From: Thermoanaerobaculia bacterium
Lineage (GTDB): Bacteria; Acidobacteriota; Thermoanaerobaculia; Thermoanaerobaculales; Sulfomarinibacteraceae
Length of the DNA: 64,000 nucleotides
Direction of reading: 5' to 3'
Assembly: GCA_027061805.1 (NCBI GenBank)
Contig: JAMOWA010000018.1
Coordinates: forward strand, 1-64,000
A program made the position numbers and the translations under genes. The notes under the pieces were generated by a model. That model was given only the letters and a program-made list of their open reading frames with translations. It did no database searches and had not been told where the DNA came from. Each line of letters starts with the position of its first letter. Position 1 is the stretch's first letter. Below are positions 3,451-24,042 of the stretch, piece by piece.

Positions 3451-4197
3451 TCACCGGTTCCCCGCGGCGAGGACGGCCTCCAGCCGGGCCAGGTCCTCCC
3501 GGGTGTTGACGCCGGCCATCTCCAGGGGGTCGTCCAGCACGTGGGCGGCCACGGGAAGGCCGCGGGCCTTCAGGACGCCGATCACGTCGGTGAGGTAGTA
3601 CTCGCCCTGGTCGTTGTCGGGCCTCAGCCCGGCGAGGGCCTGCTCCAGCGGCTCCCGCCGGAAGGCGTAGACACCGGCGTTGACCTCGCGGCAGGCGAGC
3701 TCCTCCGGGGAGGCGTCCCGGGCCTCCACGATGGCGGCCACGCTCCCGTCCGCCTCGCGCAGCACCCGCCCGTAGGCGCCGGGCTCCTCCAGGATCGCCG
3801 TCAGCAGCGCCGCGGCGGCACCGTGCTCCACCGCGTCCCTGAGGCCCGCCACCGTGGCGGGGCGCAGCAGGGGCACGTCACCGGACAGGACGAGGACCCC
3901 GTGGACGCCGGCACCCATGCCGCCCAGGGCCACCCGGACCGCGTCGCCCGTGCCCAGCTGCGGCTCCTGGAGCACCGTCCGCGCCCCTCGGGCGGCGGCC
4001 ACCGTCTCCACCCGGGCCGCGCCGTGGCCCACCACCACCACGACCCTGTGGGGCGGCACGAGCTCGAGCGCGGTGTCCAGCACGTGCTCGAGCAGCGGCC
4101 TGCCCGCCAGGGGATGCAGGACCTTGGGCAGGTCGCTCCTCATGCGGGTGCCCTTGCCCGCGGCCAGGACGGCGACGGCCCACCCGGACCCGCTCAC
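3451..4197 (-). CDS. GlmU-like N-terminal uridylyltransferase (nucleotidyltransferase domain only)
   Basis: VAVLAAGKGTRMRSDLPKVLHPLAGRPLLEHV motif; 248 aa, lacks the left-handed beta-helix acetyltransferase half. Confidence 0.85.
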   Translation of the reverse strand: MSGSGWAVAVLAAGKGTRMRSDLPKVLHPLAGRPLLEHVLDTALELVPPHRVVVVVGHGAARVETVAAARGARTVLQEPQLGTGDAVRVALGGMGAGVHGVLVLSGDVPLLRPATVAGLRDAVEHGAAAALLTAILEEPGAYGRVLREADGSVAAIVEARDASPEELACREVNAGVYAFRREPLEQALAGLRPDNDQGEYYLTDVIGVLKARGLPVAAHVLDDPLEMAGVNTREDLARLEAVLAAGNR

Positions 4198-4535
4198 GGT
4201 GCCGCCTCCAGCAGTGTCCGCACCGCCCGCCCCACGTCCCCCGTCATCTGGAGGAGGCCCGTCAGGAACAGGTTCCCCAGCGAGTGCCCCCCGAGGGGGC
4301 CGTCGCCCGCGAAGCGGTGGTCGAAGAGCCGGGCCAGCAGCTCGTGGTCCTCGGCCAGGGCCACCAGGCAGTGCCGGAGGTCGCCCACGGCGGGGATGTC
4401 GAACTCCCGCCGCAGCCGGCCCGTGGACCCGCCATCGTCGGTGATGTGGCGGAGGGGCAGGGTCTTCAGCGCCATCAGGAGGGCGGACAGGCCGGTGCCC
4501 CCACCCAGTGCAGCCAGTCGCTGGTCCGGGGACAT
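4194..4535 (-). CDS. YvcK/CofD-like protein, N-terminal fragment (possible pseudogene)
   Basis: LAALGGGTGLSALLMALK..DDGGSTGRLRREFDIPAVGDLRHCLVALAED..GHSLGNLFLTGLLQMTGD; only 113 aa; overlaps the next gene by GTGA. Confidence 0.7.
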   Translation of the reverse strand: MSPDQRLAALGGGTGLSALLMALKTLPLRHITDDGGSTGRLRREFDIPAVGDLRHCLVALAEDHELLARLFDHRFAGDGPLGGHSLGNLFLTGLLQMTGDVGRAVRTLLEAAP

Positions 4536-4539
4536 GGCC

Positions 4540-5124
4540 CTACTTGCGGCGCAGCTCGTAGAGGACCTGCTTGGCCACCGCCTTGAGCGTCTCGAAGACG
4601 CCCATGCCCTGGGGCGCGATGGCCTCGTAGGTGGGCTCGCCCTTGTAGTTCAGCAGGCGGTACATCTCGTCCACGGACACCGCCGTGGGGAGGTCGCGCT
4701 TGTTGAACTGGAGCACGTAGGGGATGGCCTTGAGCTCGAAGCCGTTCTCGCGGAGGTTGTCCTCCAGGTTGCGCAGGGACTCCACGTTGGCGTCCATGCG
4801 CGCCTCCTGGGAATCCGCGACGAAGACCACGCCGTCCACGCCCTTGAGGATGAGCTTGCGGCTGGCGTCGTAGAACACCTGGCCGGGGACCGTGTAGAGG
4901 TGGAACCGGGTCTTGAACCCCCGCACCGTCCCCAGGTCCAGCGGCAGGAAGTCGAAGAAGAGCGTCCGGTCGGTCTCCGTGGCCAGCGAGATGAGCCGCC
5001 CCTTCTGCTGCGGGTTGGAGCGCTCGTAGATGTACTGGAGGTTGGTGGTCTTGCCGCAGAGGCCAGGACCGTAGTAGACGATCTTGACGTTGATCTCGCG
5101 GGCGGCGTAGTTGATGAAGCTCAT
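4540..5124 (-). CDS. mglA: MglA-type Ras-like small GTPase
   Basis: [21 protein letters not shown]-loop, [37 protein letters not shown]. Confidence 0.92.
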
Positions 5125-5609
5125 TCGGAGAACAGGGCGTCGATGTCTTCGTCGGTGATCTCGGCGAACGGCGATGCGGCCTCCATGGCGCCCACCTCCT
5201 TGGCCTTGGCCTCCATCTGGGTGAGGACCCTCTCGATCTCGGCGGCGGCCTTCCGGACCCTCAGGCGCACGAGACCCAGCGACGAACGCTCGTCGAAGAT
5301 GACCACGAGGATCAGCCGCTGGCCGACGATGGAGATGTGGATGTTGTCCTTCTTCCCCTCGTGGAAGAGGATGGAGAACTCCTTCTCACCGATGAGCTTG
5401 GCGAGGCCGTCGGTCGCGGCCACGTTGCCGGCGGTCAGGGAGGCCAGCGAGGTGGTGTCCACGCGGTCGATCTCACCGGCACCGGCGATCTGCTGGCCGT
5501 TCTTGTCGACCAGGAACACGATGTTGGCGCTCGACTCCACCCGCAGGCGGTTGAGGATCGAGGTGATCCTGTCGAACTCTTCCTCGTACATGACTAGACC
5601 AGCATCCAC
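5121..5609 (-). CDS. mglB: Roadblock/LC7 domain protein, MglB-like
   Basis: Roadblock fold sequence, ATGA overlap with mglA. Confidence 0.85.
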
Positions 5610-5709
5610 GGCGTGAGCCTCCCTGAATCAACCTCTTCTAGCATACTACCGCTTCCCGGGCAAGATATGGAGGTTTTTCGCGGCTTTTTCGCATCCTGAT
5701 GGTCGAAGC

Positions 5710-6309
5710 CTAAACCTGCCGGCGGAGCTGGAGGGCCTGGGCCAGGGTGACCTGGTCCACGGAGCCCACCTCGCCGCCCACCGGGATCCCCGAGGCGGGA
5801 CGGCTCACCTCCACACCCAGGGGCTCGAGCCGGCGCGCGATGAAGAGCGCCGTGGTCTCCCCCTCCACCGTGGGGTTCGTGGCGAGGATCACCTCGCGGA
5901 CGCCGCCCTCCCCGACCCGTTCCAGCAACCGCTCGATGGTCAGGTCCTCCGGGCCCACCCCGTGGAGCGGCGACAGGTGCCCCAGGAGCGCGTGGTAGAG
6001 GCCGCGGTACTCCCCGGTCCCCTCCACCGACCACGCGGTGGTGGGGTCCTCCACCACGAGGATGGTGGTGCGGTCCCGGCCCGGGTCGGCACACACCGGG
6101 CAGGGGTCCTCCTCCGTGAGCAGGAAGCAGGTGGAGCACAGCCGCACCGATCCCCGGAGGCGGGCCAGGGACTGCGCGAAGGCCTCCACCTCCTCCTCCG
6201 GGCAGGTGAGGAGGTACTCCACCAGCCGCCGGGCCGACCGCGGACCCACGCCGGGGAGGCGTCCCAGGTGGGCCAGCAGGTCCCGGACGGCCCGGGGTCT
6301 CAGGTCCAC
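5710..6309 (-). CDS. recR: Recombination protein RecR
   Basis: LGRLPGVGPRSARRLVEYLL, CSTCFLLTEEDPCPVC zinc finger, Toprim-like ILVVEDPTT. Confidence 0.93.
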   Translation of the reverse strand: MDLRPRAVRDLLAHLGRLPGVGPRSARRLVEYLLTCPEEEVEAFAQSLARLRGSVRLCSTCFLLTEEDPCPVCADPGRDRTTILVVEDPTTAWSVEGTGEYRGLYHALLGHLSPLHGVGPEDLTIERLLERVGEGGVREVILATNPTVEGETTALFIARRLEPLGVEVSRPASGIPVGGEVGSVDQVTLAQALQLRRQV

Positions 6310-6340
6310 CGCACTCCCCCGCAGGTGCCCTGCGACCGGC

Positions 6341-7942
6341 TCATGCCTCGTCTCCCCGGCGATCCGGCACCACCCGCACGACCTCGCCGCCCAGCACGCG
6401 CCGGGCCAGGGCCACGCCCTCGTCGGCCTCGGCGGAGGTCCTCAGCCCCGGATCACCCTCCGTCCCCTCGGCCCCCTCAACCCGGATCACCACCGTCGTG
6501 CCCTCCCCGAAGGCCGAGCGCACGGCCTCCTCCACCACGGGAACCACGTCCGGGTTCCGGAGGTAGGCCGCCAGGGGGGCGTGGGAGGCGGGAAGGACGA
6601 GCTTCACCGTGTCGGACCCGAGGATGACCTCCGCCTCCTCCACGGCCCCCGCCACCCGGGGGCTCCGGGGCCACAGGAGCTCCGCGAGGCGGTGGCCCGG
6701 GGATCCCGGCGGATGCCGGCCCTCGGCTCCACCGTGGGGCGCCGCGGCGGAACCGCCACCTCCACCTGCCGAGCTCGCTGCCGCACCCCTCGACCGCTGC
6801 GAACCATCCGGAGGTGACACGGGGCCGCCGCCGGCCAGCAGCGACTCCACGGCCTGCACGGCGGGCCACCGGGCGAGCCGGAGGCAGGCCACCTCCAGGA
6901 CGAGCTCCCGGTTGGCGGCGTCCCGGAGGAGCGGCTCCTGCTCCACCCACAGGCCCAGCATCCTCGTGAGCGCCGTGGCGTCGAGGCCTCCGGTCGCCTC
7001 CCGGAGCCTCTGGACCTGCTGCTCCTCGAGACCATCCGCCAGCTCTGGGTCCACGGTCAGGTGGACCATCTGGCGCAACGCCCGCCCCAGCTCGTGGTAG
7101 AGCACCACCGGATCGTGGCCGGCGGCCAGCTCCCCGCGGAGGGTGCCCAGGGCGTCGGCGATCTCGCCCCGCACCAGGTGACCCAGGAGGCGGGCCACGC
7201 GGTCCGCCGGCGGCACGCCGAGCACCGTGGCCACGGCCTCCTCGTCGATGGATTCCCCGGAGAAGGCGCGGAGCTGGTCCAGCAGGGAGAGGGCGTCGCG
7301 GAGGCTCCCCTCGGCGGCCCGGGCCACGGCCGAGGCGGCGGCCCCCGTGAGCCCGAACCCCTCCTTCTCGGCGATGGACGCGAGGTGCTCCGCAATGCGG
7401 GCCGCGGGGACCGGGCGGAACTCCAGCTGCTGGCAGCGGGAGAGGATGGTCGGGGGCACCTTGTGGCGCTCGGTGGTGGCGAAGATCCACAGGATGTAGG
7501 GGGGCGGCTCCTCGATGGTCTTGAGGAGCGCGTTGAACGCCGCCCTGGACAGCATGTGGACCTCGTCCACGATCATCACCCGGTACCGGTCCCGGGTGGG
7601 CCTGTAGCGCAGCATCTCCTGGATGTCCCGGACGTTGTCCACGCCCGTGTGGGTGGCCGCGTCCAGCTCGACCACGTCCAGGCTGGACCCCTCCACGATC
7701 TCCCGGCAGGAGACGCACTCCCCGCAGGGCTCCGGCGCCGGGCCCCGCTCGCAGTTGACGGCCATGGCCAGGAGCCGCGCCACCGTGGTCTTGCCCACGC
7801 CGCGCAGGCCGGAGAAGAGATAGGCCTGGCCGAGCGTGCCGGAGCCGAGAGCGTTCTGGAGGGTCCGGACCACCCCCTCCTGGCCCACGAGATCCGCGAA
7901 GCGGCGGGGGCGGTAGGCGCGGGCGAGGACCTGGTACGTCAC
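6341..7942 (-). CDS. dnaX: DNA polymerase III subunit gamma/tau
   Basis: VTYQVLARAYRPRRFADLVGQEGVVRTLQNAL, FSGLRGVGKTTVARLLA, VDEVHMLS; GTG start chosen at 7942. Confidence 0.93.
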   Translation of the reverse strand: MTYQVLARAYRPRRFADLVGQEGVVRTLQNALGSGTLGQAYLFSGLRGVGKTTVARLLAMAVNCERGPAPEPCGECVSCREIVEGSSLDVVELDAATHTGVDNVRDIQEMLRYRPTRDRYRVMIVDEVHMLSRAAFNALLKTIEEPPPYILWIFATTERHKVPPTILSRCQQLEFRPVPAARIAEHLASIAEKEGFGLTGAAASAVARAAEGSLRDALSLLDQLRAFSGESIDEEAVATVLGVPPADRVARLLGHLVRGEIADALGTLRGELAAGHDPVVLYHELGRALRQMVHLTVDPELADGLEEQQVQRLREATGGLDATALTRMLGLWVEQEPLLRDAANRELVLEVACLRLARWPAVQAVESLLAGGGPVSPPDGSQRSRGAAASSAGGGGGSAAAPHGGAEGRHPPGSPGHRLAELLWPRSPRVAGAVEEAEVILGSDTVKLVLPASHAPLAAYLRNPDVVPVVEEAVRSAFGEGTTVVIRVEGAEGTEGDPGLRTSAEADEGVALARRVLGGEVVRVVPDRRGDEA

Positions 7943-18079: not shown

Positions 18080-18164
18080 GCCGAAGTGGCGGAATTGGTA
18101 GACGCGCACGGTTGAGGGCCGTGTGGAGCGATCCGTGCCGGTTCGAGTCCGGCCTTCGGCACCA
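18080..18164 (+). tRNA. tRNA-Leu (GAG), CCA encoded
   Basis: GCCGAAGTGGCGGAATTGGTAGACGCGCACGGTTGAGGGCCGTG...CCGGTTCGAGTCCGGCCTTCGGCACCA with long variable arm. Confidence 0.93.
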
Positions 18165-18165
18165 T
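18149..18165 (+). repeat. attL core in the tRNA 3' end
   Basis: CCGGCCTTCGGCACCAT. Confidence 0.85.
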
Positions 18166-18316: not shown

Positions 18317-19522
18317 GTGGCGAAGCTCGGAAAGCTCACAGCAAGGACCGTGGAGACCGCGGGGGTTGGCAAGCATGGGGACGGCGGGGGGCTCTGGTTC
18401 GTCGTTCGGAAGAACGGCTCGAAGGCATGGGTCTTCCGGTATACCTGGCACGGGAAAGAGCGGAGCATGGGGCTCGGGCCGTATCCAGACGTGGGGCTCG
18501 CCGAAGCCCGGGAAAAGGCCGCCGACGCTCGCCAGCTACTCAGGAACGGGGTTGACCCCATCTCCTACCGCCGCTCCCAGAGCCGGAAGGTGCCGACCTT
18601 CAAGGTGTGCGCGGAGCGGTATCTCGCAGCCCATGCCCCGGCGTGGAGCAACCCCAAGACCCCCAAGCACTGGCGGGGAAGCCTGGAGCGCCATGCATAC
18701 CCGATCATCGGGGACATGCCCGTCAACGCCATCGAGACCTCCCACGTCATGGAGATTCTGGAGACCCTGTGGTTTGACCGCCCAGAGATGGGGTCGAGGG
18801 TGCGGGGGAGAATCGAGCGCATCCTGTCATGGGCTGCTGTGCAAGGGTACCGGGACCCCCTCAACCCCGCCCGCTGGCGCGGTCACCTTGACCAACTCCT
18901 GCCCCAGCCCACGAAGGTGCGGGCCGTCGAGCACTACAAGCACGTCCCCTACCAGGAGCTGCCCGGGGTGCTGGAGAAGATCCGCTCCATGCCCGGGATC
19001 ACACCACAGGCCGTGGTGTTCATGGCTCTCACCGCTGCCCGCGGCATCGAGGTTCGGCAAGCGGAGTGGGCGGAGATCGACCTTGAGACCTCCACGTGGA
19101 CCATCCCCGGGGGGAAGATGAAGGCCGGCAAGGAGCACCGGGTGCCGCTCTCTCCCGAGGCGGTGGCACTCCTGGAAGCCCTGCCCCGCTTCGAGGGGAA
19201 AGGATCGCAGCTCATCTTCCCGAGCCCTTCGGGCGGTGTGCTTTCGGACATGGCCCTCAAGCGGGTTCTCGTTCGTGCCGGCATCGATGCGACCCCCCAC
19301 GGGCTCCGCTCCACCTTTGCGACCTGGGCGCGGGAGCAGACCGGCTACCCGTGGGAGATCGTCGAGAGCTGCCTTGCTCACGCCGTGGGATCGTCCGTTG
19401 CCCAGGCTTACAACCGAGGGGACATGCTCGCCAGGCGACGCCGGCTCATGGAGGAATGGGGAGCGTATCTCTCGACGCCCCGGCCGGCCGGCGAGGTTGT
19501 GCCGCTGCCGATGCGGGGGTGA
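18317..19522 (+). CDS. int: Tyrosine recombinase/integrase (P4-like)
   Basis: N-terminal DUF4102-like GDGGGLWFVVRKNGSKAWVFRYTWHGKERSMGLGPYPDVGLAEAREKA; ALTAARGIEVRQ, THGLRSTFATWA-type catalytic boxes. Confidence 0.92.
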   Translation: MAKLGKLTARTVETAGVGKHGDGGGLWFVVRKNGSKAWVFRYTWHGKERSMGLGPYPDVGLAEAREKAADARQLLRNGVDPISYRRSQSRKVPTFKVCAERYLAAHAPAWSNPKTPKHWRGSLERHAYPIIGDMPVNAIETSHVMEILETLWFDRPEMGSRVRGRIERILSWAAVQGYRDPLNPARWRGHLDQLLPQPTKVRAVEHYKHVPYQELPGVLEKIRSMPGITPQAVVFMALTAARGIEVRQAEWAEIDLETSTWTIPGGKMKAGKEHRVPLSPEAVALLEALPRFEGKGSQLIFPSPSGGVLSDMALKRVLVRAGIDATPHGLRSTFATWAREQTGYPWEIVESCLAHAVGSSVAQAYNRGDMLARRRRLMEEWGAYLSTPRPAGEVVPLPMRG

Positions 19523-20173: not shown

Positions 20174-20288
20174 GCCCTCCCCACCCCTTCCATGAAACCC
20201 GCACCTTCGTTCAACTGTGGGAAAGGTGGACGTGACCCCGCCCCGTGTCGCCACGCCTTGCGCCATTCTGGGCGGCAAGGAGGCGAAA

Positions 20289-20486
20289 ATGAACGAGGAA
20301 ACACTGCTCCGGCTGCCACAAGTCATTGAGCGCGTTGGGGTTTCTCGGGCAACGCTCTACCGGTGGATCGCTGACGGCACCTTCCCGCCCCCCCGCCTGC
20401 TCGGTTTGAGGGCGGTCGCCTGGCTGAGCACGGAAATCGACGGCTGGATCCAGGAACGCCAACCCGCCCGCCGACCCGCGGAGTAG
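20289..20486 (+). CDS. AlpA-like HTH regulator/excisionase
   Basis: LLRLPQVIERVGVSRATLYRWIADGTFPPPRLLGLRAVAWLSTEIDGWIQER. Confidence 0.88.
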   Translation: MNEETLLRLPQVIERVGVSRATLYRWIADGTFPPPRLLGLRAVAWLSTEIDGWIQERQPARRPAE

Positions 20487-20488
20487 CC

Positions 20489-22201
20489 ATGCCAGCGGTG
20501 GGCGATTCTGCCGGGCTCCACGACGCTGAGCGCGCGGTTCTCGGCGCGGCGCTGCTCGACCCTGACGCGGCACGGACCGCGGCCGAACTCCTGACCGCTG
20601 AGGACTTTGCCGAGGAACGGCACGGGGTGATTTTCGACGGGGTCTTGCGCGTCCTGGCGAACGGTGGGAGCCCTGACCTCCTGCTAGTCACCGAGGCTCT
20701 CCGATCCGCCGGAACCCTCCAACGCGCCGGTGGCGCAGCGTATCTCTCGGAGCTGCTTGACGTTACACCGGACGTTGCCAACGTCGCGCACTACGCAGGG
20801 CTCCTTCGCCGCGGCGCCGCCCATCGGCGCGCGACTTCGGCAATGCGGGCCGCGGCTCTGGACCCCCAGCCCGCCACCGTTGCCGCGGCAAAATCCGCGC
20901 TCGACGAACTGGAGCACGGCGCCCAGGGCGAGCCCGTCGGCGTGGTGCTGGCCGACGTCCCGCCCGAGCGTGTGGATTGGCTCTGGCCGGGGCGGATCCC
21001 GCTCGGAAAACTGACCGTGCTTGATGGTGACCCGGGGTTGGGCAAGTCAACAATCCTTCTCGACCTGTGCGCCAGGCTCAGCACAGGCCGACCCTTCCCG
21101 TTCGCCGGCGACTACGAGCCGGTTAACGGCGGCGCCGTGGTTCTGACCGCCGAGGATGGCCTCGGCGACACCGTCCGTCCGCGCCTGGAAGCGGCAGGAG
21201 CGAACCTCGCCTGCGTGCTTGCTCTCCAGACCATCGGCAAGGGGAAGGACCGGCGCGGGATCCAGCTTCCCGCCGATCTCCCGATAGTTGAGGCTGCTAT
21301 CCGGCGCGTCGATGCCCGGCTCGTTGTGGTCGATCCTCTGATGGCCTTCCTCGCCGGTGAGGTCAACTCCCACCGAGACCAAGACATTCGGCGCGCGCTC
21401 TTCGCCTTGAGCGACCTTGCGGAGCGTACCGGAGTGGCGCTGACGCTCGTCCGGCATCTCAACAAGCGGGGCGGCGGAATCCCACTTTACCGGGGCGGGG
21501 GTTCCATCGGAATCGCCGCCGCGGCACGATCCGGGCTCCTTGTCGGGAAGAAGCCCGGAGACGATGAGGTGCGGGTCCTTGCTTCGACGAAGTCAAACCT
21601 TGCACGCCCGCCCCGCTCGGTTGAATACCGGCTCGACCCGGCCGGAGGGGTTGCGGTGGTGCGCTGGACCGAAGAGTCTGACACCACCGCGGCCGACCTT
21701 GTAGCCCCACCACAGCGACGCCGGGATCTGGCACAGGCCGAGGCGGAAGACTTCCTCACCAGTCTGCTCTCCGATGGACCGATCCCGGCGGCCGAGGTCT
21801 GGTCGGCGGCTCGTGCCGCGTCGCTTTCTCGAAACACTGTTCAGCGGGCGAAATCCCGCCTCGGGATCGCCTCCACCCAGGGGCGCGATGGCTGGCTCTG
21901 GAGCCTGCCGAACGACACCCCAGAGACCCAGAGCCCCAACTCTGGGTTTTGGGGCTCTGCCCCTGCCGCTACAATGCCGATTACCCAGGAAACCCAATCG
22001 GTAGAAGGCAGAGCCCCACAGAGCCCCAATGCTGGGCACGTGCCCAAGTCAATGGCAGAGCCCCAACTCGGGATCGACCCCAGGCACTGGCCGGCGGAGC
22101 CCCGATATGAGCTTGCTTCGCTGGTGCGCGGGGGGACGCCGAGAGCTGAAGCCGTCGAGCGGATCCGCGCACAGTGGGAGCCGAACCGCTCCACCGCATA
22201 A
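20489..22201 (+). CDS. DnaB N-terminal domain fused to RepA-like AAA ATPase and C-terminal wHTH; putative replication protein
   Basis: AERAVLGAALLDPDAARTAAELLTAEDF (DnaB_N), LDGDPGLGKSTILLDL Walker A, LVVVDPLMAFL Walker B, LTLVRHLNKRGG. Confidence 0.85.
   Translation: MPAVGDSAGLHDAERAVLGAALLDPDAARTAAELLTAEDFAEERHGVIFDGVLRVLANGGSPDLLLVTEALRSAGTLQRAGGAAYLSELLDVTPDVANVAHYAGLLRRGAAHRRATSAMRAAALDPQPATVAAAKSALDELEHGAQGEPVGVVLADVPPERVDWLWPGRIPLGKLTVLDGDPGLGKSTILLDLCARLSTGRPFPFAGDYEPVNGGAVVLTAEDGLGDTVRPRLEAAGANLACVLALQTIGKGKDRRGIQLPADLPIVEAAIRRVDARLVVVDPLMAFLAGEVNSHRDQDIRRALFALSDLAERTGVALTLVRHLNKRGGGIPLYRGGGSIGIAAAARSGLLVGKKPGDDEVRVLASTKSNLARPPRSVEYRLDPAGGVAVVRWTEESDTTAADLVAPPQRRRDLAQAEAEDFLTSLLSDGPIPAAEVWSAARAASLSRNTVQRAKSRLGIASTQGRDGWLWSLPNDTPETQSPNSGFWGSAPAATMPITQETQSVEGRAPQSPNAGHVPKSMAEPQLGIDPRHWPAEPRYELASLVRGGTPRAEAVERIRAQWEPNRSTA
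21929..22068. repeat. Iteron-like cluster inside the replication gene
   Basis: AGAGCCCC at 21930, 22010, 22020 and 22057 (direct) and 21951 (inverted); 11-bp-arm hairpin CAGAGCCCCAA/TTGGGGCTCTG at 21929-21959. Confidence 0.6.
22109..22130 (+). repeat. 22-bp direct repeat copy 1
   Basis: GAGCTTGCTTCGCTGGTGCGCG, identical to 22513-22534. Confidence 0.8.
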
Positions 22202-22239
22202 CCTCAACGCGCTGCGGAACATATAACGGAGGATGACCG

Positions 22240-22749
22240 ATGCCACTATTCCAACCGAAGAACAAGACCACGACACCAGAGCCGGGGTTGATCGAGCGAA
22301 CGAAGCAGGAGCGGCAGGAAGCCGCCTCCCGCGTCTCTGAGCTGCGAGAAGAGCTTTCACAGGCCAGAAGCGAAGCGTGGAGGCTGGAAGAGGCCGCGAA
22401 GAGGCTTCCGCATGGTCCCGAGCGCCAGCAACTGGAGTGGGACACCAGGAACGCCGGGGATCGAGCCGCGGAGCTGCGGGCCGAGATCGAGACCCTTGAG
22501 GAAAAGGACGGGGAGCTTGCTTCGCTGGTGCGCGACCTTGAGCGCGAAGCCGAGCAAGCCGAGGCACGGATCCGGTACCACGCCGAGATCATCGCAAACC
22601 ACGATGCCGCCGTGAAGGCCGCCGAGGAAGAGCTGGAGCGTACCCGCCGGAACCATGATGAAGCCGTGCAGTTGAGGCAACGTGCCCTCGATGAGCTGGT
22701 GGAACGCTTGCGGGAGCTGACCGGTGAGGATGCCGGCACGGGGAGCTAA
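22240..22749 (+). CDS. Coiled-coil protein
   Basis: Heptad-rich RVSELREELSQARSEAWRLEEAAKRL... Confidence 0.7.
   Translation: MPLFQPKNKTTTPEPGLIERTKQERQEAASRVSELREELSQARSEAWRLEEAAKRLPHGPERQQLEWDTRNAGDRAAELRAEIETLEEKDGELASLVRDLEREAEQAEARIRYHAEIIANHDAAVKAAEEELERTRRNHDEAVQLRQRALDELVERLRELTGEDAGTGS
22513..22534 (+). repeat. 22-bp direct repeat copy 2
   Basis: GAGCTTGCTTCGCTGGTGCGCG; both copies in frame encode ELASLVR. Confidence 0.8.
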
Positions 22750-22751
22750 CC

Positions 22752-23486
22752 GTGGCGCGCCCCTGTACCGTCTGCTCGCACCCTGACCGTGCCGTGATTG
22801 ATGAGGCGCTGGTGGCTGGAAACGAAACGAGCCGCGCGGTTGCGCAACGGTACGGTCTGGGCAGGCACGCCGTCTGGCGGCACGCCAGGAACCACCTTGC
22901 ACCACGTCTTGCAGAGGCCGTCCGGGAGCGGGAGGCGGCAGCACGGACGGAGGCGGAGGCTCTGGTGGAGGTGGTCATGGAGCACCAGGAGGTGGAGCGC
23001 CTGACCGCCGAGAGCTTGCTCCGGCGTCTTGAGGGGACCGTGGAGGCGGCCCAGGGGCTGCTTGATGCCGCCATCGATGATGGTGACCTCCGGACCGCCG
23101 TGGGGGCGGTGAGAGAGCTTCGTGCGAGCCTCGTGACGCTGGCCCAGGCCGTGGCCGCGGCCGATGGTGCGAACCTGGAAGCCCTGGCGGGGATCCCCGA
23201 ACCTGCCCTCGACCTGGTGCACGAGGCGGTGGAGACCGTGACCGTAGCCGGCGAGGACCCCGCCACGGTGTTTGGCCGGGCCGGCCTTGCGGTCTGTGCA
23301 TCGGTCACGGCAGAGGAAGACGGCGAGGTGGTCACCCGGTGGCGGCCACTGACCGAGGTGTACCAACCCCTCGATGGAGGCATTCCCCGCGCCATCGTGG
23401 TACACGGCGAGCTTGAGGACCTGCCCGAAGGTGACCCCTTGCGAGACGCGGACCCCTCCGCGCACGTGATCCTTGTTGGCGGCTAG
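22752..23486 (+). CDS. HTH/zinc-finger-like protein, possible small-terminase-like
   Basis: CTVCSHPDRAVIDEALVAGNETSRAVAQRYGLGRHAVWRHARNHL followed by coiled coil. Confidence 0.6.
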   Translation: MARPCTVCSHPDRAVIDEALVAGNETSRAVAQRYGLGRHAVWRHARNHLAPRLAEAVREREAAARTEAEALVEVVMEHQEVERLTAESLLRRLEGTVEAAQGLLDAAIDDGDLRTAVGAVRELRASLVTLAQAVAAADGANLEALAGIPEPALDLVHEAVETVTVAGEDPATVFGRAGLAVCASVTAEEDGEVVTRWRPLTEVYQPLDGGIPRAIVVHGELEDLPEGDPLRDADPSAHVILVGG

Positions 23487-24025: not shown

Positions 24026-24042
24026 CCGGCCTTCGGCACCAT
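24026..24042 (+). repeat. attR core (tRNA-Leu 3' fragment)
   Basis: CCGGCCTTCGGCACCAT, with partial flanking identity (GGTTCGA before, CCCC after). Confidence 0.85.

Follow-up and report, generated by a model that had tools for sequence, protein, structure and literature searches.

A candidate replication origin directly 3' of the winged-helix code in AAA_25 helicase genes of mobile elements

Introduction

Why should the last stretch of a replication gene, where the encoded protein is disordered, be crowded with short DNA repeats? The question is raised by a 64,000-nucleotide stretch of a Thermoanaerobaculia bacterium genome (contig JAMOWA010000018.1, referred to as a whole as the window), for which a preliminary description had pointed to five AGAGCCCC octamers, four direct and one inverted, within about 140 bp of the tail of a replication gene, and to a hairpin with 11-bp arms at 21929-21959. 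The octamers and the arms were all located as described. Here we propose that this cluster is very probably the own replication start of the element that carries the gene, although there are no binding or replication data. The features concerned are collected in Table 1.

Table 1. Features of the element, its replication gene and the repeat array (positions in the window; L029 and L030 are loci on viral contigs, see text)
Feature	Position	Strand	Basis or remark
tRNA-Leu (GAG), integration target; 3' end is the left attachment site	18080..18164	+	ARAGORN
attL core CCGGCCTTCGGCACCAT	18149..18165	+	17-bp exact direct repeat with 24026-24042
Tyrosine integrase (Arm-DNA-bind_3, Phage_int_M, Phage_integrase)	18317..19522	+	Pfam
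AlpA-type excisionase/regulator	20217..20486	+	Pfam PF05930, E 9e-18
Replication gene: DnaB_N (aa 12-107), AAA_25 RecA-fold helicase (aa 154-328), winged helix, disordered tail	20489..22201	+	
C-terminal winged-helix code (aa 414-472)	21728..21904	+	AlphaFold pLDDT 92.9 and 90.5; PDB winged-helix neighbours
Recognition helix (aa 448-458)	21830-21862	+	
Iteron 1 CCAGAGCCCCAA	21928..21939	+	aligned to GAAGGATGCCAA in L029
Iteron 2 GCAGAGCCCCAA, inverted, hairpin partner of iteron 1	21949..21960	-	
Iteron 3 GCAGAGCCCCAC	22008..22019	+	
Iteron 4 ACAGAGCCCCAA, 10 bp from iteron 3	22018..22029	+	same 10-bp doublet in L029/L030
Palindrome TGGGCACGTGCCCA	22033..22046	.	aligns with TTGGCAACGTTGCCAA in L029/L030
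Iteron 5 GCAGAGCCCCAA	22055..22066	+	
Iteron 6 GCGGAGCCCCGA, degenerate, 2 mismatches	22094..22105	+	
Locally AT-richer stretch after the stop codon, 55% GC vs ~66%	22200..22299	.	composition; possible unwinding region, inference only
attR core CCGGCCTTCGGCACCAT, right end of the ~5.9-kb element	24026..24042	+	17-bp exact direct repeat

Results

The replication gene is carried by a ~5.9-kb element that is bounded by a 17-bp duplication of the 3' end of tRNA-Leu and in which a tyrosine integrase gene, an AlpA regulator gene and the replication gene follow one another. In the AlphaFold model the RecA-fold core is confident and the winged helix canonical, while confidence is low for the residues after the winged helix, at the start of the array region; the array lies in DNA that encodes the disordered tail of the protein. 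The helicase core is structurally similar to RadA, DnaB and RSF1010 RepA (1olo, TM 0.68 by target). The winged helix is weakly similar to ArgR and PadR-type domains, and its best PDB match (E 0.013) indicates only that it is a winged helix. Further downstream, the gene at 22752-23486 has an HTH-like region at its N-terminus (a weak phrog_664 match), and short matches similar to it occur near the replication genes of two homologous loci, L070 and L081.

The octamers start at 21930, 22010, 22020 and 22057 on the forward strand and at 21951 on the reverse strand. Since AGAGCCCC is not rare, being near its expected count in the 64-kb window (9 against 6.4), its frequency alone was rejected as evidence, and the weight is carried by the clustering and by the longer 11-mer unit CAGAGCCCCAA. 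This 11-mer has four copies in the whole 3.1-Mb assembly, all inside 138 bp of the replication-gene tail, and the inverted arms CAGAGCCCCAA/TTGGGGCTCTG occupy 21929-21939 and 21949-21959. When near matches are included there are six sites between 21928 and 22105, which are spread over all three reading frames and occur in both orientations. GC content over the array is 62%, so that AT enrichment is weak, and dyad symmetry of the window's own array was tested and was not significant.

A dispersed genomic repeat of the REP/BIME type that had inserted into the gene was also considered, as short GC-rich palindromic repeats do look like REP sequences. Such a repeat should be present in many copies, but the genome has no copy of CAGAGCCCCAA outside this cluster and the hairpin is absent from all 59 related genomes searched, and this candidate was rejected as practically ruled out. 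The exact hairpin was likewise absent from the viral contigs searched.

Counted as repeated 9-mer pairs, the tail contains 35, against a mean of 0.57 and a maximum of 10 in 1000 shuffles of codon order, and equal-length windows elsewhere in the replication gene contain no more than 4. It could be argued that the disordered tail has been selected for its amino acids with the DNA repeats as a by-product, since the tail is translated and many in-frame repeats are present at the homologous loci L035, L084 and L085. In the window, however, 17 of the 20 direct pairs fall out of frame, the other 15 pairs being inverted, and because the copies use three frames and both strands, 32 of the 35 pairs are not explicable by in-frame amino-acid repetition. 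The tail protein is also poorly conserved, and selection on the protein is contradicted by loci with short tails, where arrays run past the stop codon or lie wholly after it; we regard it as barely tenable.

Folding of the region as RNA is also favourable (z -5.3 over 141 nt), which would suit an RNA element or terminator in which the 11-bp hairpin acts in the transcript. Inverted iterons fold trivially, however, no T-run terminator was found, and the homologous loci L140, L150 and L176 have only direct copies and hence no conserved hairpin, making a role in the transcript very improbable. The hairpin merely results from two iterons in inverted orientation, given that direct-only arrays occur in some relatives. 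Separately from the iterons, an exact 22-bp direct repeat, GAGCTTGCTTCGCTGGTGCGCG, is present at 22109-22130 and 22513-22534, at the end of the replication gene and in the next gene; it reads ELASLVR in both genes and may represent a duplication or a shared motif.

The closest comparison is provided by two viral contigs, one labelled L021 or L029 and the other L022 or L030. The L029 and L030 proteins are 71% identical to that of the window over the AAA-wHTH region, and in the alignment no site is missing and the spacing is kept, including the 10-bp doublet and the central palindrome. The 4-bp core, though, is switched in every copy, from AG[AGCC]CCAA in the window to AG[GATG]CCAA in L029/L030, with one GGTG variant. 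Such a concerted change of the core, in sites read in different frames, would be expected if the sites co-evolve with a DNA-binding protein. In a second, Rubrobacter-type pair (L069/L070) nucleotide identity is 89% for the sites against 65% for the rest of the tail DNA, and protein identity is 53% in the tail against 91% over AAA-wHTH. The preliminary description had suggested that homologues be aligned to see whether the repeats are kept while the linker protein is not, and this is the pattern that the pair displays. A comparison of L172 with L183 was excluded, L183 having been taken from the wrong strand. Two other observations were made on the L022 contig. Three tandem 32-bp palindromic repeats, CACTTGAATATCCGCTCAAGTGTTTGGCGTTT, lie at 2888-2983, 3' of the replication gene, and are unrelated to the iterons; and a second gene, at 5839-6819, combines a DnaB_N domain close to the N-terminus of the window's protein with a different ATPase half, which suggests domain swapping among replication genes.

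To survey the family, we gathered homologues purely on protein similarity, disregarding repeats, and reduced them to 106 at 80% identity. A search of genome contigs found no relatives with a single sequence as query and 20 with a 3-row alignment. The window's gene matches the definition of the family, having AAA_25, a C-terminal wHTH and an array 3' of the wHTH code. In the 250 bp 3' of that code, the 106 non-redundant homologues have a mean of 17 and a median of 10 repeat pairs, whereas windows starting at -1500 to -250 and at +250 to +1500 have means of 0.8 to 2.0. At least 6 repeat pairs were found at 63% of the wHTH loci, against 4% (in the final 250 bp) to 8% (past the stop codon) for other long ORFs of the same loci. 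The array was significant at p<=0.002 in 67 of the 104 testable loci and at p<0.05 in 75, p-values being derived from shuffles. By the same test there was no array (p>=0.05) in 29 of the 104 homologues, including members from gut plasmids and phages; an array near the wHTH was absent from Campylobacter and Subdoligranulum plasmids (L024, L025), a mycobacteriophage (L190), and L192 and L193. At L192, the Pseudomonas plasmid pBYT1-1, the region 3729-6502 encodes an AlpA regulator and a short AAA_25-like protein, with a TnsA-like endonuclease and a DDE transposase alongside but no array.

The distance from the wHTH code to the stop codon ranges from +6 to +460 bp while the array stays put, inside the gene if the tail is long, which is the window's case, and past the stop if it is short (L036, L081). 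Since the stop position floats, the array keeps its place relative to the winged-helix code, not relative to the gene end. GC content dips locally by 4-7 points over the arrays of the family. That homologues lacking the repeats would refute selection at the DNA level, as the preliminary description had stated, is a condition met only literally: the homologues carry other repeat sequences in the same place, and this recurrence strengthens the DNA-level case. The earlier suggestion of DNA-level selection in the linker, which looks dispensable, is thus supported by the use of three frames and both orientations, by the conservation of the sites in L069/L070 and by the family-wide recurrence, and a DNA-level reading of the repeats has good support.

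Motifs were derived by a simple seed method. Over 59 aligned loci the sites are divergent, with a consensus of about CCAAGGTGSCCAA in which AA and CCA are conserved anchors around a variable centre, and a 9-bp tandem spacing is frequent. Motif similarity is correlated with wHTH identity (Mantel r 0.35, p<0.001), also when AAA identity is controlled for (partial r 0.33, p<0.001), while the reverse partial correlation, of motif with AAA identity, is not significant (0.04, p 0.24). The repeat sequence therefore tracks the identity of the wHTH and not that of the helicase, which bears on binding only indirectly. Mirror-image pairs of sites number 118 across 57 loci against 82 +/- 3 expected (at most 93 in 1000 shuffles), L071, L172, L183 and L184 being clean examples.

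Some members are found on plasmids. In pCG2, an autonomous 6.8-kb plasmid, the strongest repeat cluster of all, with repeats at 2340-2650, lies right on the 3' side of an AAA_25-family replication gene, a match in layout that is suggestive of a role for the array in autonomous replication. The end of this gene is a maximum of the cumulative GC skew, not a minimum, which is ambiguous and was not used as evidence. A Streptomyces plasmid has a similar array directly 3' of its replication gene.

It is possible that the sites are bound by the winged helix or by another protein of the element, but for autoregulation, control of copy number or incompatibility, partition or excision, since the anatomy of a binding site is silent on what the binding does. 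Some plasmids also have stronger repeat clusters elsewhere, as in the Streptomyces plasmids L187 and L189, where clusters in windows 16176 and 7301 (replication-gene strand) exceed that of the replication gene and are of unknown role. Against such a role, the array lies 3' of the gene whatever comes next, and in the window no promoter was detected at that place; its sequence follows the wHTH of the helicase protein itself, and it accompanies a helicase that in many members is joined by a primase or a DnaB_N domain. The recognised N-terminal modules of array-bearing proteins are all priming-related, being PrimPol, Toprim or DnaB_N. We therefore consider a role outside initiation unlikely, though not to be dismissed.

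Discussion

We consider it likely that the iterons of the array are bound by the C-terminal winged helix that their own gene encodes and that the array is, at the same time, the replication origin of the element, both binding and origin activity being inferred. What can be read from the sequences themselves is the array, its family-wide place 3' of the winged-helix code, the constraint at the DNA level and the covariation with the winged helix. Upon excision or induction, winged helices would dock on the CAGAGCCCCAA sites, and the AAA_25 RecA-fold domains would assemble there as a hexamer or hexamers and melt nearby DNA. The DnaB-type N-terminal domain may then recruit the host DnaG primase, with priming supplied by PrimPol or Toprim in relatives, and a host polymerase would extend. 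Binding, melting, primase recruitment and actual origin activity are all inferences in this scheme. Since reader and sites are adjacent, they would travel and diverge together.

On a broader scale, we lean slightly towards the view that these loci form a widespread and undescribed class of origin, used by AAA_25 (RecA-fold) self-loading helicases, in which winged helix and iterons lie back to back as one inherited recognition cassette, the reading frame is free to run through the origin or to stop before it, and there are often two mirror-image half-origins for oppositely oriented helicases. No paper describing these arrays was found in the open-licence literature. If this view is correct, many wHTH-iteron pairs become readable from sequence, and dozens of paired examples of protein and DNA site would make a recognition code workable. 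Candidate origins of phages, satellites, plasmids and integrative elements with AAA_25-wHTH helicases could be located just 3' of the winged-helix code, the non-conserved low-complexity tails of these genes would be accounted for, and the idea of the self-loading helicase would be widened from AAA+ to a RecA-fold motor. Possible uses include the prediction of incompatibility groups and replicons for bacteria without vectors.

Candidate origins are the best explanation of the arrays, which extend the known iteron origins that lie in or adjacent to a gene. Clustered direct or inverted copies near an initiator gene, beyond chance, are expected of an iteron origin and are present here. SaPI Rep and SCCmec Cch2 are self-loading initiator helicases whose C-terminal DNA-binding domain reads iterons immediately downstream (PMC7581432), and SaPI Rep is an established precedent that favours the reading proposed here. 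The likeness includes a mobile-element helicase, its C-terminal DNA-binding domain, short iterons 3' of its own gene and an associated primase, and the arrangement of a C-terminal winged helix with iterons directly 3' of its code is met in the window, with binding inferred. Theirs, however, are DUF927/D5 AAA+ helicases. Neither a DUF927 nor a D5/Primase_Cterm helicase was found in the window's protein by Pfam or structure, which has the AAA_25 RecA fold (RepA/RadA-like) instead, and here the array is often inside the coding sequence.

In RepA_N plasmids, such as that encoding pSK41 Rep, Rep boxes lie mid-gene over a dispensable linker (PMC5703833). Iterons within the replication gene in DNA for a dispensable linker, binding by a winged helix and recruitment of DnaG by another domain are common to both, but RepA_N proteins have an N-terminal wHTH and are not helicases, and their array is mid-gene and not at the 3' end; the RepA_N domain (PF06970) had no Pfam match in the window's protein. 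Since the defining helicase or RepA_N domains were absent on testing, the AAA_25-wHTH family, which would work like the SaPI and RepA_N cases, belongs to neither.

The parallel with lambdoid O genes drawn in the preliminary description holds only as an analogy, in that origin iterons lie within an initiator gene, but the two cases differ in protein family, in where the DNA-binding domain sits and in which part of the gene the array occupies. Lambda O lacks a helicase domain and has its DNA-binding domain ahead of the origin, in mid-gene, whereas the window's protein is itself a helicase and its array follows the last folded domain; Pfam found DnaB_N and AAA_25 in it and no match to the O family. 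In lambda, ori-lambda is located in gene O (PMC6022878).

Closer in domain composition are the PrimQH/All3500 proteins of mobile elements (Kazlauskas et al.), where the WH of primase-RepA-WH proteins was predicted to recognise origins (PMC5862659). Several relatives share with them a PrimPol, a RepA-family helicase and a C-terminal WH, while the window's member has DnaB_N in place of PrimPol. RSF1010 RepA resembles the window's protein in the fold of its helicase core; it is without a wHTH, its iterons being read by a separate protein, RepC, and in pRN1 a stem-loop 3' of the gene is used (PMC4234260).
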